Source: Flavobacteriales bacterium (GTDB taxonomy: Bacteria; Bacteroidota; Bacteroidia; Flavobacteriales_D; Sanyastnellaceae). Taken from it: a stretch of 32,817 nucleotides of DNA. The translations under genes were made by a program, and so were the position numbers. The stretch spans positions 1 through 32,817 of the forward strand of contig JAQWFN010000020.1 of assembly GCA_029238785.1 (NCBI GenBank). Reading direction: 5' to 3'. Each line of letters opens with the position of its first letter. Position 1 is the first letter of the stretch. The notes under the pieces are model-generated. The model was given only the letters and a program-made list of their open reading frames with translations, did not search any database and was not told the origin of the DNA. Of this stretch, positions 3,429 to 6,412 are shown piece after piece.

Positions 3429-4235
3429 CTAGTCCATCAATACAATTCTACTTGTAGATTCCGTAGCGTCGTTATAAACGCGGATCATGTAGTTTCCAGC
3501 TGAAAGCTCAGCAAGATTGATCAATTCCATTTTGTTTGACGTGTTCATTTGGAAAACAATGTTTCCTAACATGTCGTAAACCTCAATCTGTACAGTTCCA
3601 TCGAAACCATCTAACTGAAGGTTAACGTGGTCTCTACTTGGGTTAGGGTAAACGTTTAAACTAGCAGCAGTTTGGTTTTCAACTACACTAAGCGCAGGAT
3701 CTAAGGTAATGCCCAAATCTGCGTTGTTGATGGCGTCTACCTGACCGTCTACAGAGTAAATCGCATAGGTATCGAGAACGATTTCGTAATCGCTTGGACG
3801 AATAACGTTAACTGTAGGAAAGCCAAGTGGTGCCCAAATGCTCAAATCCAAAGTCAAAGGAGCTTCGTTGATGATTGGGTAAGTTACCCCCTCAAGCCAG
3901 TTTCCAATTGTACTCGGACCAGTTCCTTCAAGGTCGGCCTGTGTTGTTGATGCATCTCCTTCATAAAAGATAACACGCAATTGGTTGGTACCGTTTGGTC
4001 CGTAAGCTTGGTGTAAATCTTCCAAAGCGTGAGACTGGTGAAGGTTCCAACATGGTCCGCACCAAGTTGCAGAAACATCAACCACAGCAATCAATCCTTG
4101 GTCGAGGATATCAGCGTATAGGTTGATTTGATTCCCGTCAAGATCAGAAACAGAGAAATCAGGAGCAGTTCCATACTGGGCAGAAGCTCCGAAAGTCATA
4201 AAAGCCGTAGCGGCGATAAGTAAAAGTTTTTTCAT
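3429..4235 (-). CDS. secreted thioredoxin-like protein with T9SS sorting domain
   Basis: The 268-residue protein has a signal peptide ending GASAQ. A redoxin/TlpA-like domain follows (about residues 22-175) with the active-site motif W58-C-G-P-C62 and a cis-proline segment GFPTVNV. The C-terminal 75 residues are a T9SS type A sorting domain (LNVYPNPSRD, YDMLGNIVF, LSAGNYMIRV). It should therefore cross the outer membrane through T9SS and be surface-attached or released. Disulfide exchange on extracellular substrates is the family expectation; the substrate is unknown. It is divergent from satD across a 225-base gap and ends at the shared terminator at 3373-3402. Confidence 0.9.
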   Translation of the reverse strand: MKKLLLIAATAFMTFGASAQYGTAPDFSVSDLDGNQINLYADILDQGLIAVVDVSATWCGPCWNLHQSHALEDLHQAYGPNGTNQLRVIFYEGDASTTQADLEGTGPSTIGNWLEGVTYPIINEAPLTLDLSIWAPLGFPTVNVIRPSDYEIVLDTYAIYSVDGQVDAINNADLGITLDPALSVVENQTAASLNVYPNPSRDHVNLQLDGFDGTVQIEVYDMLGNIVFQMNTSNKMELINLAELSAGNYMIRVYNDATESTSRIVLMD

Positions 4236-4361
4236 AATGCAGGTTTAAAATGAATGAAGCATGAATTTACACCTTTCCATTTCCTTAAACAAAAGTGATA
4301 TCGTTTAAATCTTGTAATGCAGAAGTAAATGAGCAACCCCGTTTTGAGAATGTTCTGGCAA

Positions 4362-4437
4362 TATCGTCTTCAAACCCGATAATGTGATTTATCGGTTCTA
4401 GACCCGATATTCTTGCATATCGGATAATAATCCGATA
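4362..4437. promoter_or_regulatory. operator array of alternating half-sites, 14-base period
   Basis: Hexamers CCGATA and TATCGG alternate in orientation and start at 4376, 4390, 4404, 4418 and 4432, an exact 14-base step. A near match (TATCGT) at 4362 is in the same register. Any adjacent pair forms a 20-base dyad of the form hexamer-N8-hexamer. The last half-site overlaps the -7 box of the satD promoter. This is the layout expected of cooperative repressor binding. The regulator is not proven; the helix-turn-helix protein encoded immediately downstream is the first candidate. Confidence 0.8.
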
Positions 4438-4443
4438 TATTTG
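4413..4443 (+). promoter_or_regulatory. satD promoter
   Basis: A perfect Bacteroidota -7 box, TATATTTG, occupies 4436-4443. A TTG at 4413-4415, 20 bases upstream, fits the -33 element. The predicted transcript start is around 4450, giving a leader of about ten bases before the ATG at 4461. The -7 box shares bases with operator half-site 4432-4437. Confidence 0.6.
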
Positions 4444-4460
4444 AATAAAACAGTTCAGCG

Positions 4461-5063
4461 ATGATAGCAGTGATTACTGGAGATATTATGAATTCCCGAG
4501 AAGTAGTGCCAAGCATTTGGCTTGAGTCTTTGAAGGGGGTATTGTTGCTTTATGGTGATGAGCCCTCAGCTTGGGAGATTTACCGAGGAGATAGTTTTCA
4601 ATTAAAACTTTCGCCAGATAAGGCCTTGCGCTGTGCTTTGCATATTAAGTCGGCCATCAAACAAGACGACCTGCTCGACGTGCGCATGGCGATTGGTTTT
4701 GGGGAAGAGTCGCATCACGCAGAAAAAATAACAGAATCGAACGGAACGGCTTACTTGAATTCAGGAAACTGCTTTGAGTCGCTCAAAAAGGAAACACTAG
4801 CTGTGGCTTCAATGAACAAGGTTTTGGACGAACGTTTGAATTTGATGTTGAGCCTCTTATTGCTCACAGCAAACCAGTGGAGCAAGACCGTTTCGAAGGT
4901 GCTTTGTGCGGCCTTTGAGCATCCTAACTTACCTCAAGTAGAATTGGCCGCATTGCTTGATAAATCGCAAAGCAGCATCAGTGAGGCACTTAAACGAGGC
5001 GCTTACGATGAAATACTGAAGTTGAACGAGCTCTTTCAGGCTGAAATAAAAAGCAGCTTATGA
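4461..5063 (+). CDS. satD: SatD family protein: cyclase-like domain plus helix-turn-helix
   Basis: The 200-residue protein matches the SatD family as I know it (opening VITGDIMNSR; WEIYRGDSFQ; DVRMAIGFG; NGTAYLNSGNCFESLK). The segment order resembles a class III nucleotidyl cyclase: Asp8 at the end of strand 1, a G43-D44 hairpin, a helix LRCALHIKSAI, R75-M-A-I-G like cyclase RIGIHTG, and an NGTAY...FESL helix like cyclase VNLAARLESL. Residues about 130-185 look like a helix-turn-helix (LPQVELAALLDKSQSSISEAL). It is therefore plausibly a nucleotide-sensing or nucleotide-making transcription regulator, which is inference. It overlaps the DUF3307 gene by four bases (ATGA). The family name comes from a Streptococcus mutans acid-tolerance locus; its biochemical role is not established as far as I know. 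Confidence 0.82.
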   Translation: MIAVITGDIMNSREVVPSIWLESLKGVLLLYGDEPSAWEIYRGDSFQLKLSPDKALRCALHIKSAIKQDDLLDVRMAIGFGEESHHAEKITESNGTAYLNSGNCFESLKKETLAVASMNKVLDERLNLMLSLLLLTANQWSKTVSKVLCAAFEHPNLPQVELAALLDKSQSSISEALKRGAYDEILKLNELFQAEIKSSL

Positions 5064-5770
5064 TGCTCTTGTTGAAGTTACTTCTCGCGCATGTTCTTGG
5101 TGATTTCGTGCTTCAACCCGCCAAATGGGTAGCGCATAAATTGGAGCGCAAGATAAAATCAGGCTACCTGTATTTGCACCTCTTGGTTCACCTTTTGGCC
5201 ATGCTCACTGTTTTGGGCTTTGATTTCACCTTTCTGCCGGGCATACTCTTGATTGCTCTTGCTCATTACCTCATTGATTTAAGCAAACTCTACCTCACTG
5301 GAAGGGCAGACAGCAAGCTTCTGTTTGTTCTCGACCAGTTGGCGCACTTGCTTGTGATCTTCTTTGTGGCGCAGTATTACACACCTTTAGCTGGGATTTC
5401 CTTCAATTTTGGAGAAAAGGAGGTGTTTTTGATTTTGACTCTACTCTGTGTCACATCGGTTTCTTCGGTGATTATTCGTGTGTTGATGAGTGCATGGAAG
5501 ATGGCTGATGATAGCAGCTCCTTAAATAATGCAGGGATGTACATTGGAATTTTAGAGCGGCTGTTTGTTTTTGTTTTTATCGTGATGGGGCAGTGGCAGG
5601 TCATCGGCTTTTTGATTGCTGCGAAATCGGTGTTCAGGTTTAGCGACCTCACTAGAGCGAAAGACCGTAAATTGACGGAATACATTTTGATAGGCACCTT
5701 ACTCAGTTTCGCCCTAGCAGTGGGATTTAGTTTGATTTACCTCGCTCTAAAAGAAAAGGTACTTTATTGA
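5060..5770 (+). CDS. DUF3307 polytopic membrane protein
   Basis: The 236-residue protein has about seven hydrophobic segments and the DUF3307 N-terminal signature LLAHVLGDFVLQP. Polar residues occur as i/i+4 pairs on successive hydrophobic segments: H11/D15, H40/H44, H69/D73 and D92/H96. A further motif, NNAGMYIGILERL, lies near residue 155. Such spacing puts side chains on one helix face and suggests an intramembrane metal or proton site; this is inference. Its start codon overlaps the satD stop (ATGATG at 5060), so the two are translationally coupled. I know SatD and DUF3307 to be frequent neighbours in Bacteroidota, which supports a shared function. No enzymatic function is established to my knowledge. 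Confidence 0.85.
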   Translation: MMLLLKLLLAHVLGDFVLQPAKWVAHKLERKIKSGYLYLHLLVHLLAMLTVLGFDFTFLPGILLIALAHYLIDLSKLYLTGRADSKLLFVLDQLAHLLVIFFVAQYYTPLAGISFNFGEKEVFLILTLLCVTSVSSVIIRVLMSAWKMADDSSSLNNAGMYIGILERLFVFVFIVMGQWQVIGFLIAAKSVFRFSDLTRAKDRKLTEYILIGTLLSFALAVGFSLIYLALKEKVLY

Positions 5771-5815
5771 ACCAAAGTCGTTTTAGCGTGTACAGCATCA
5801 CCAAAGAAAGAAGAT

Positions 5816-6373
5816 ATGAAAAAGCTAAGCCTCATTTGTTTGTTATCGATTGTACACGCTTTTCCGATGAACGCACAGCAAGCGCAGAAAAAGGATCATC
5901 AACGAGAAGTAAGTATTCTCCCTTATAAAGTCATTACGAACGATGCCTTCTTCAAAATAATGAGCTATGGGACCCCAGAAGGGTCAATGGACCACATTCA
6001 AGGATTTGAATACGAGTGGGGGTATAATTATGAATTGTTGCTTGATGTGAAGTTTCATAAAGAATACATGGCTGATGCCTCAGACCGTGACTACATTTTG
6101 AAGAAGGTGATTTCAAAAACACCGGCAGAGGAAGGGCTCACTTTCAAATTATACCTCAACGCAAATATCTATTTAGGCGAGCCAGAACCTGGTGTTTCAG
6201 CTTTCGAAGAAATCGAAGAAGGACTTTATCGCTATTACGATGAATTAGAGCTGCTTATTCCTGAAGAACTCATGCCCGCGTTTCAAAAGGTCTTGGATGG
6301 CGAAGCGGAGGGGAAGTCCACATTTAAAATCATCGGCCCAAATCGCGTGGAATTGGTGAGCATGAATTTTTGA
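5816..6373 (+). CDS. secreted DUF4377-like protein
   Basis: The 185-residue protein has a signal peptide ending PMNAQ. The centre reads IQGFEYEWGYNYELLLDV... followed by ADASDRDYILKKVISK, which fits the DUF4377 pattern (a GFxYExGYxYxL strand, then an 'ADAS..Y.L..V.SK' element). DUF4377 proteins are small secreted or lipid-anchored proteins of unknown function, often near META-domain proteins; none is present here. The C-terminal half is acidic with no other motif. It lies 45 bases after DUF3307 in the same direction and could be read through from the satD promoter. The coding region ends just before the GC-rich repeat block. Confidence 0.7.
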   Translation: MKKLSLICLLSIVHAFPMNAQQAQKKDHQREVSILPYKVITNDAFFKIMSYGTPEGSMDHIQGFEYEWGYNYELLLDVKFHKEYMADASDRDYILKKVISKTPAEEGLTFKLYLNANIYLGEPEPGVSAFEEIEEGLYRYYDELELLIPEELMPAFQKVLDGEAEGKSTFKIIGPNRVELVSMNF

Positions 6374-6412
6374 GTGGATTTTTTGGAAGAAGGGGGGGAG
6401 TTGTTATCAAGC

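Follow-up and report, generated by a model that had tools for sequence, protein, structure and literature searches.

We find that the ladder of half-sites upstream of the satD-like gene in the window (the whole stretch of 32,817 bp analysed here) is, with a probability of roughly 0.8, an autoregulatory SatD operator, on which SatD dimers would lie over the promoter and repress satD together with the DUF3307 gene. We regard the ladder as very probably a docking strip for SatD because its spacing recurs before relatives of the gene while the half-site words change together with the helix that would read them. At the level of sequence, this picture comprises the geometry of the array, its conservation, its co-variation with the recognition helix, the pairing of the two genes in an operon, and the lack of any sign of a further target in the genomes checked. 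The elements of the locus are as follows.

4362 to 4381, no strand assigned: half-site dyad 1, TATCGT (4362-4367)-N8-CCGATA (4376-4381)
4390 to 4409, no strand assigned: half-site dyad 2, TATCGG (4390-4395)-N8-CCGATA (4404-4409)
4413 to 4415, forward strand: tentative -33 element, TTG, which would lie 20 bases before 4436, in the spacer between half-sites 4 and 5
4418 to 4437, no strand assigned: half-site dyad 3, TATCGG (4418-4423)-N8-CCGATA (4432-4437)
4436 to 4443, forward strand: -7-like box TATATTTG, which fits TAnnTTTG
4461 to 5063, forward strand: satD-like gene, 200 aa, with a predicted cyclase-like palm at about residues 1-117 and a C-terminal helix-turn-helix (recognition helix 170-179)
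5060 to 5770, forward strand: DUF3307 gene, predicted membrane protein, its start overlapping the satD stop

The original prediction, a ladder of six half-sites with a 14-base period at 4362-4437, was reproduced in both coordinates and register: alternating half-sites begin at 4362, 4376, 4390, 4404, 4418 and 4432, in exact 14-bp steps. When all 32,817 bp were scanned without a motif, allowing any two alternating steps of 8-30, the best score for six half-sites was 0.94 at 4362, with 0.69 at the runner-up; for five half-sites the values were 1.00 at 4376 and 0.77, and for four they were 1.00 and 0.89. At five or six sites the ladder has no comparable place elsewhere in the window. The window contains 16 copies of the hexamer CCGATA, five of them ladder sites, where shuffles give 7.0 +/- 2.5. 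Beyond the ladder, the rest of the 3.11-Mb genome holds no exact dyad of either kind, and its one-mismatch dyads, at 2 (reversed-pattern control 7) and 5 (control 3), are at about the level of chance. Among 13 CCGATA-type genomes, eight carry exact TATCGG-N8-CCGATA dyads, 18 in all; 15 of these lie at satD and three elsewhere, where the reversed control gives 11, and at no further gene in the same genomes did exact dyads rise above control. The ladder seems to be an operator private to the operon it precedes, with degenerate sites elsewhere possible.

A single-sequence search of 100 kin genomes detected a SatD-like protein in 9, counting the genome of the window, and a 12-row profile search of 395 genomes from the phylum detected one in 94; the Pfam PF16264 profile gave no match in the window's own genome and 14 controls. 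We took in 90 of 96 profile-search places, leaving out six lower-scoring or partial ones, one of which belongs to the diverged family f29. Together with three loci from another collection, the profile-search loci make up the 101 compared here, in which the window counts once (as L001; L025, which is the window again, was excluded throughout) and the members of two apparent near-identical pairs, L011/L026 and L029/L030, are all kept; redundancy was removed in a set of 67 representatives. Co-variation was analysed in 83 of the 101 loci (identity of at least 0.69 and profile score above 76), L031 being dropped by hand for its asymmetric half-sites, and array layouts were counted in 82 of these 83. 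Extraction of half-sites carried a prior favouring TAT, an intra-dyad step of 14 and even site counts, on which the word lists and the counts over 82 arrays lean; for L070, L086 and L090, where the TAT prior had chosen another register or orientation, the word was set by hand from a prior-free scan. The best-step, two-free-step and 0.77-threshold scans are independent of this prior.

It had been proposed to look upstream of orthologues for CCGATA and TATCGG at 14-base steps; there the geometry is kept and the hexamer varies. In 220 bp of upstream DNA, scanned for four alternating hexamers at any step of 9-24 with no motif given, the best step was 14 in 61 of 101 loci, namely in 55 of the 67 whose profile score exceeds 200 and in 6 of the 34 remaining loci. 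When the two steps were left free, 81 of the 101 scored higher than every one of 10 dinucleotide shuffles of the same DNA; for 80 of the 81 the period is 28 (57 loci) or 29 (23 loci), where 16 percent would be expected by step-pair count. At a score threshold of 0.77, chosen after the results of the two-free-step scan had been seen, 74 of the 101 upstream regions pass, every one of them with a period of 28 or 29; of 101 length-matched control stretches inside satD none passes, the maximum there being 0.68. These counts bear out the expectation of an operator-like array at the satD promoter, shared by satD-DUF3307 pairs. What is conserved at these pairs is the layout, not the half-site word, and a test for the same hexamer upstream of orthologues would have misled, the conserved trait being geometry.

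Twenty of the 101 loci fail to exceed their own shuffles in the two-free-step scan; among them, L038, L063 and L088 show a ladder in the prior-free scan, and L093 and some others show one by eye. Eleven of the 20 belong to f29, whose 12 fetched loci have no ladder, and the twelfth, L112, exceeds its shuffles solely with an unrelated period of 33. The f29 family (L094, L097, L098, L102, L103, L105, L106 and L109-L113) has kept the satD-like gene and DUF3307, the latter downstream in 12 of 12 loci, without the ladder; in L094 and L097, a lone inverted repeat of the type CGTTGC-N9-GYAACG was seen by eye. L096 and L099 have DUF3307 and no ladder, and L084 has neither.

Within the ladder, the unit is the dyad TATNNN-N8-NNNATA. 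Its internal spacing is 8 in the canonical extraction, which assumes a step of 14 there; among 82 arrays, successive dyads are separated by 8 in 58 arrays and by 9 in 24, and 68 consist of whole dyads, with TATNNN at the start and NNNATA at the end. Independently of that assumption, wherever the motif-free scan settles on hexamers of this kind with period 29, it finds 14 inside and 15 between dyads (e.g. L061, L076, L085, L087, L089, L095 and L104), and a few distant copies (L114 and the plasmid locus L124) look like steps of 13 and 16. Palindromy of the spacers is a weak discriminator of the two dyad types: inside the TATNNN dyad it is 0.41 (shuffles 0.30), and between dyads 0.40 (shuffles 0.35). 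Given a fixed N8 dyad, a gap of 8 or 9 and a majority of whole dyads, we read the window as three dimer sites 28 bp apart, not as competing registers. The prediction in its strong form, in which overlapping dimer registers compete freely, is rejected as the main reading, since the gap between dyads varies and TATCGG-N8-CCGATA alone keeps its spacing. DNA makes a turn about every 10.5 bp, so that 28 bp corresponds to 2.67 turns and neighbouring dimers would be rotated by about 120 degrees; contacts between neighbours, or polymerisation along the array, are possible.

Taken further, the array could nucleate an open-ended SatD filament in which every adjacent pair of half-sites is bridged, CCGATA-N8-TATCGG included, and in which length or register tunes occupancy. 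We consider this somewhat unlikely. Spacing of 14 bp throughout the 58 arrays with a gap of 8, counts of up to 19 half-sites and two alternating twofold axes, a symmetry that one would expect of a linear polymer, all suit a filament, but the gap has switched between 8 and 9 at least 7 times on the N-terminal tree while the N8 dyad was kept, the commonest array, in 34 of 82 loci (range 4-19), has only six half-sites, and most of the 82 arrays consist of whole dyads.

Dimers on whole dyads, our preferred reading, would be well placed to interfere with transcription. A distance of 23 bp separates the ladder from the start codon of the satD-like gene, and its final half-site (4432-4437) shares two bases with TATATTTG; the motif TAnnTTTG is what we take to be the Bacteroidota -7 consensus. 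At 34 of 84 loci, TAnnTTTG occurs in the ladder, up to 14 bp before it or up to 10 bp after it, and the final half-site lies a median 20 bp from the approximate start codon (84 loci). The overlap of ladder and promoter is our sole argument for repression. That SatD is an activator, or a repressor made into an activator by its ligand, we hold to be unlikely: some loci do have long arrays extending far upstream (e.g. L049 and L087), but both the overlap of the final half-site with the -7-like box and the short median distance to the start suggest blocking. Sigma-70-type promoters were uninformative (7 found, 4.2 expected), and an RNA element was rejected, as no Rfam family scored above gathering in 4000-6400 of the window. 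A DUF3307-like ORF lies directly downstream of the satD-like gene in 97 of 101 loci, and the DUF3307 gene is the likely co-regulated partner of satD.

The half-site words of the relatives include TATCGG, TATCGT, TATCTG, TATTAC, TGTTAC, TATTAG, TATAAG, TATAGA, TATATG, TATTCC, ATTAGC, TTTCGC and others, which rules out a fixed hexamer as the conserved trait. Because one architecture is kept through at least 36 word changes on the tree of N-terminal domains (83 loci), a protein-DNA code, with residues 170, 171, 172 and 175 set against half-site bases, becomes readable residue by residue. When half-site bases 4-6 were compared with about 200 SatD columns in the 67 representatives, adjusted mutual information was highest for E175 (0.49), S172 (0.35) and S171 (0.28), all of which sit in the helix QSSISE, and the same three columns lead in a comparison of 1,195 pairs whose N-terminal domains are 45-85% identical; there, pairs that differ in word are also somewhat more diverged (mean 0.50, against 0.58). 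A fourth co-varying column, E184 (0.23; window 5010-5012), lies C-terminal to the recognition helix and co-varies perhaps by shared descent.

Particular words go with particular helices. CGG occurs with QSSxSE in 13 of 14 cases (the exception, L078, has QSSVND), CTG with QxNxSE in 3 of 3 (L038, with QGNISE, mixes TATATG and TATCTG), TAC with AAVSR in 4 of 4, and TCC or GCC with AVSK in 3 of 3, AVSK being found also with AAC (L082 and L083). At position 170, Gln accompanies TAT in 73 loci and TTT in 2, while other residues accompany TAT in none and other words in 8 (Fisher test, 1.1e-9 over 83 loci and 4.1e-8 over 67 representatives; three of the 8 non-Gln words were set by hand), and in L051 and L056 Gln is replaced by Arg alongside a change of TAT to TGT. 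For distant relatives, the eight recognition residues predicted the word in 45% of cases, against 39% for the whole N-terminal domain, 15% for 8 random columns (best of 30 draws, 25%) and 7% for shuffled labels (best of 100, 21%). As the helix barely outpredicts the N-terminal domain, shared descent carries part of the co-variation signal. Independent-pair tests on the tree are underpowered: 4.4 of 6 pairs link Q170 and TAT the same way and 0 the opposite way (p 0.06-0.125), and for A at position 5 with Ala172 the result (0.6 same, 0.1 opposite, of 3) is uninformative.

The word thus tracks residues 175, 172 and 171 of the recognition helix, and SatD itself, which the original prediction proposed to test on this fragment, very probably binds the ladder. 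For another regulator, encoded elsewhere, to bind it would be highly improbable, since the word follows SatD's own helix across many switches and ladders with other words precede satD-like genes on Pseudomonadota plasmids. A functionless repeat, left by tandem duplication or chance, has next to no likelihood, for although a few arrays (e.g. L087) have near-identical spacers, the window's five spacers are all different with the hexamers kept, the chance level is far below, and co-variation of word and recognition helix speaks strongly against it. Upstream of satD in L031 there is a 14-bp ladder whose two orientations seem to differ in word (ATATCA in one, GCATAT in the other), which would suit a heterodimer or a shift of the word.

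The window protein is called SatD-like here because its match to Pfam PF16264 (SatD; 21.3 bits, E 2.3e-4, span 3-180) is under the gathering cut-off of 29; a relative, L003, scores 37.6 bits, over the cut-off. Its AF2 model, built from 12 rows, has a pLDDT of 93.9. Among the 50 VIA matches listed are cyclases, GGDEF, Cas10/Cmr2 and GTP cyclohydrolase III at Z 7.8-9.3 (e.g. 2qv6_C, Z 9.3, rmsd 2.7, 106 aligned; 1ybu_B, Z 8.6, rmsd 3.3, 126 aligned), and the best Foldseek E value is 1.7e-3, with none at or below 0.001. By this moderate match, the model places residues 1-117 in the palm fold of the cyclase/GGDEF/Cas10 superfamily. D8 and D44, in strand 1 and the strand 2-3 hairpin (model strands 2-10, 38-41 and 45-50), are both kept in 99 of 101 loci and would occupy the metal positions of the palm, from which we infer metal or nucleotide binding and equivalence to catalytic residues. 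A sequence-profile search of the PDB gave weak matches only (best E 0.019), most of them between the C-terminal part and helix-turn-helix or HMG-box proteins; the Ma1120 cyclase matched residues 42-83 at E 0.5.

The downstream protein matches Pfam PF11750 (DUF3307) at 98.3 bits (cut-off 23). Its model has a pLDDT of 89.4 and no clear match in the PDB (Foldseek best E 1.3; VIA Z at most 6.8), where a sequence search gave a single match at E 0.75. In the DUF3307 protein (5060-5770), the C-terminal half beyond the Pfam domain is strongly conserved (GxxIGxxER...AKSxxRF...EYxxIGT), and conserved His and Asp fall in predicted helices. PADLOC 2.0.0, whose library covers described systems only, was run on eight proteins: the window's two gave 0 hits, and two plasmid SatD-like proteins gave weak ones (E at least 0.0073), mostly over the C-terminal part.

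In our model, each TATCGG-N8-CCGATA dyad would hold one SatD dimer through two C-terminal helix-turn-helix domains. Between 4362 and 4437, three such dimers at intervals of 28 bp, or about 2.7 helical turns, would cover the -33/-7 region and keep satD and the DUF3307 gene from being transcribed. The cyclase-like palm at the N-terminus, with both metal-type aspartates kept, would likely dimerise and sense nucleotide, and repression would be lifted when a nucleotide-linked signal reaches the palm. We infer dimerisation, repression over activation, contact between neighbouring dimers and the nucleotide ligand.

A tblastn search of plasmids, made after the code had been seen, found SatD-like/DUF3307 pairs in Pseudomonadota. 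On a Vibrio lentus plasmid (L116), TTTAGC, GCTAAT, ATTAGC, GCTAAA, ATTAGC and GCTAAA stand at 2873, 2887, 2901, 2915, 2929 and 2943, in exact 14-bp steps, with the word [AT]TTAGC and a helix, aligned by eye, of TATASK; the Bacteroidota locus L108 has the helix TATISK and the word ATTAGC. The Vibrio plasmid copy fits the word-helix code. Of 11 extra loci, scanned against mononucleotide shuffles, L115, L116, L117, L120, L121 and L124 have their best score at a period of 28 or 29 and exceed each of six shuffles; L119 is a borderline case (0.63, shuffles 0.60), L118, L123 and L125 score within their own shuffles, and L122 scores above them but at period 20. The L124 (Enterobacter) and L125 (Klebsiella) plasmids carry TCAACC/GGTTGA repeats of period 29 with steps of about 13 and 16, not 14 and 15, those of L125 scoring within shuffles. 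On a Sphingomonas insulae plasmid (L122, 2769-2946), the SatD-like/DUF3307 pair has next to it a gene with the annotation Pycsar system effector family protein, a neighbour that possibly hints at a role in conflict. A phage or viral origin was rejected: no phage record matched either query, and viral contigs yielded one relative (L117), with none for the Vibrio query.

These results give a poorly described family a first testable role, that of a regulator that binds its promoter and carries a cyclase-like sensor domain, and mark DUF3307 as its likely regulated partner. More tentatively, in a reading that we hold to be somewhat unlikely, the SatD-like/DUF3307 pair may be a widespread mobile two-gene conflict or stress module, in which the palm detects or synthesises a nucleotide and SatD dimers lined up on their own ladder restrain a harmful DUF3307 membrane protein until a nucleotide trigger, such as phage attack, dissolves the array. 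On such a reading, protein symmetry would fix the layout while the word drifts with the helix, leaving each copy with a private operator.

In the open-access literature we found no description of this operator, most subscription papers lying outside the search. Like SatD as pictured here, the Trp repressor is a helix-turn-helix repressor whose dimers are able to bind side by side; unlike SatD, it has to our knowledge no cyclase-like sensor domain, no six evenly spaced half-sites and no helix-tracking words. Arrays of met boxes bound by MetJ resemble the SatD ladder in their repeated operator units, neighbouring dimers and autoregulated promoter. MetJ reads DNA by beta strands, according to PMC8163980, whereas SatD would do so by a helix-turn-helix. 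With the palms of class III nucleotidyl cyclases, GGDEF proteins and Cas10, SatD 1-117 shares the predicted fold and a pair of metal-type aspartates, D8 and D44, that hardly varies; unlike in those proteins, the palm is fused to a DNA-binding domain, and it is not known to be catalytic. The namesake family is streptococcal SatD (Pfam PF16264), below whose cut-off the window protein scores. In Streptococcus pyogenes, a gene with the annotation satD belongs to the accessory genome (present in 178 of 249 genomes), yet scores essential across the strains tested (PMC11323703). Such a combination would be expected if the gene encoded a repressor or an antitoxin that keeps a harmful partner in check, a conclusion that is ours and not that of the paper. 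This link to harm is indirect, and the SatD model offers a possible reason for the behaviour of the streptococcal gene.
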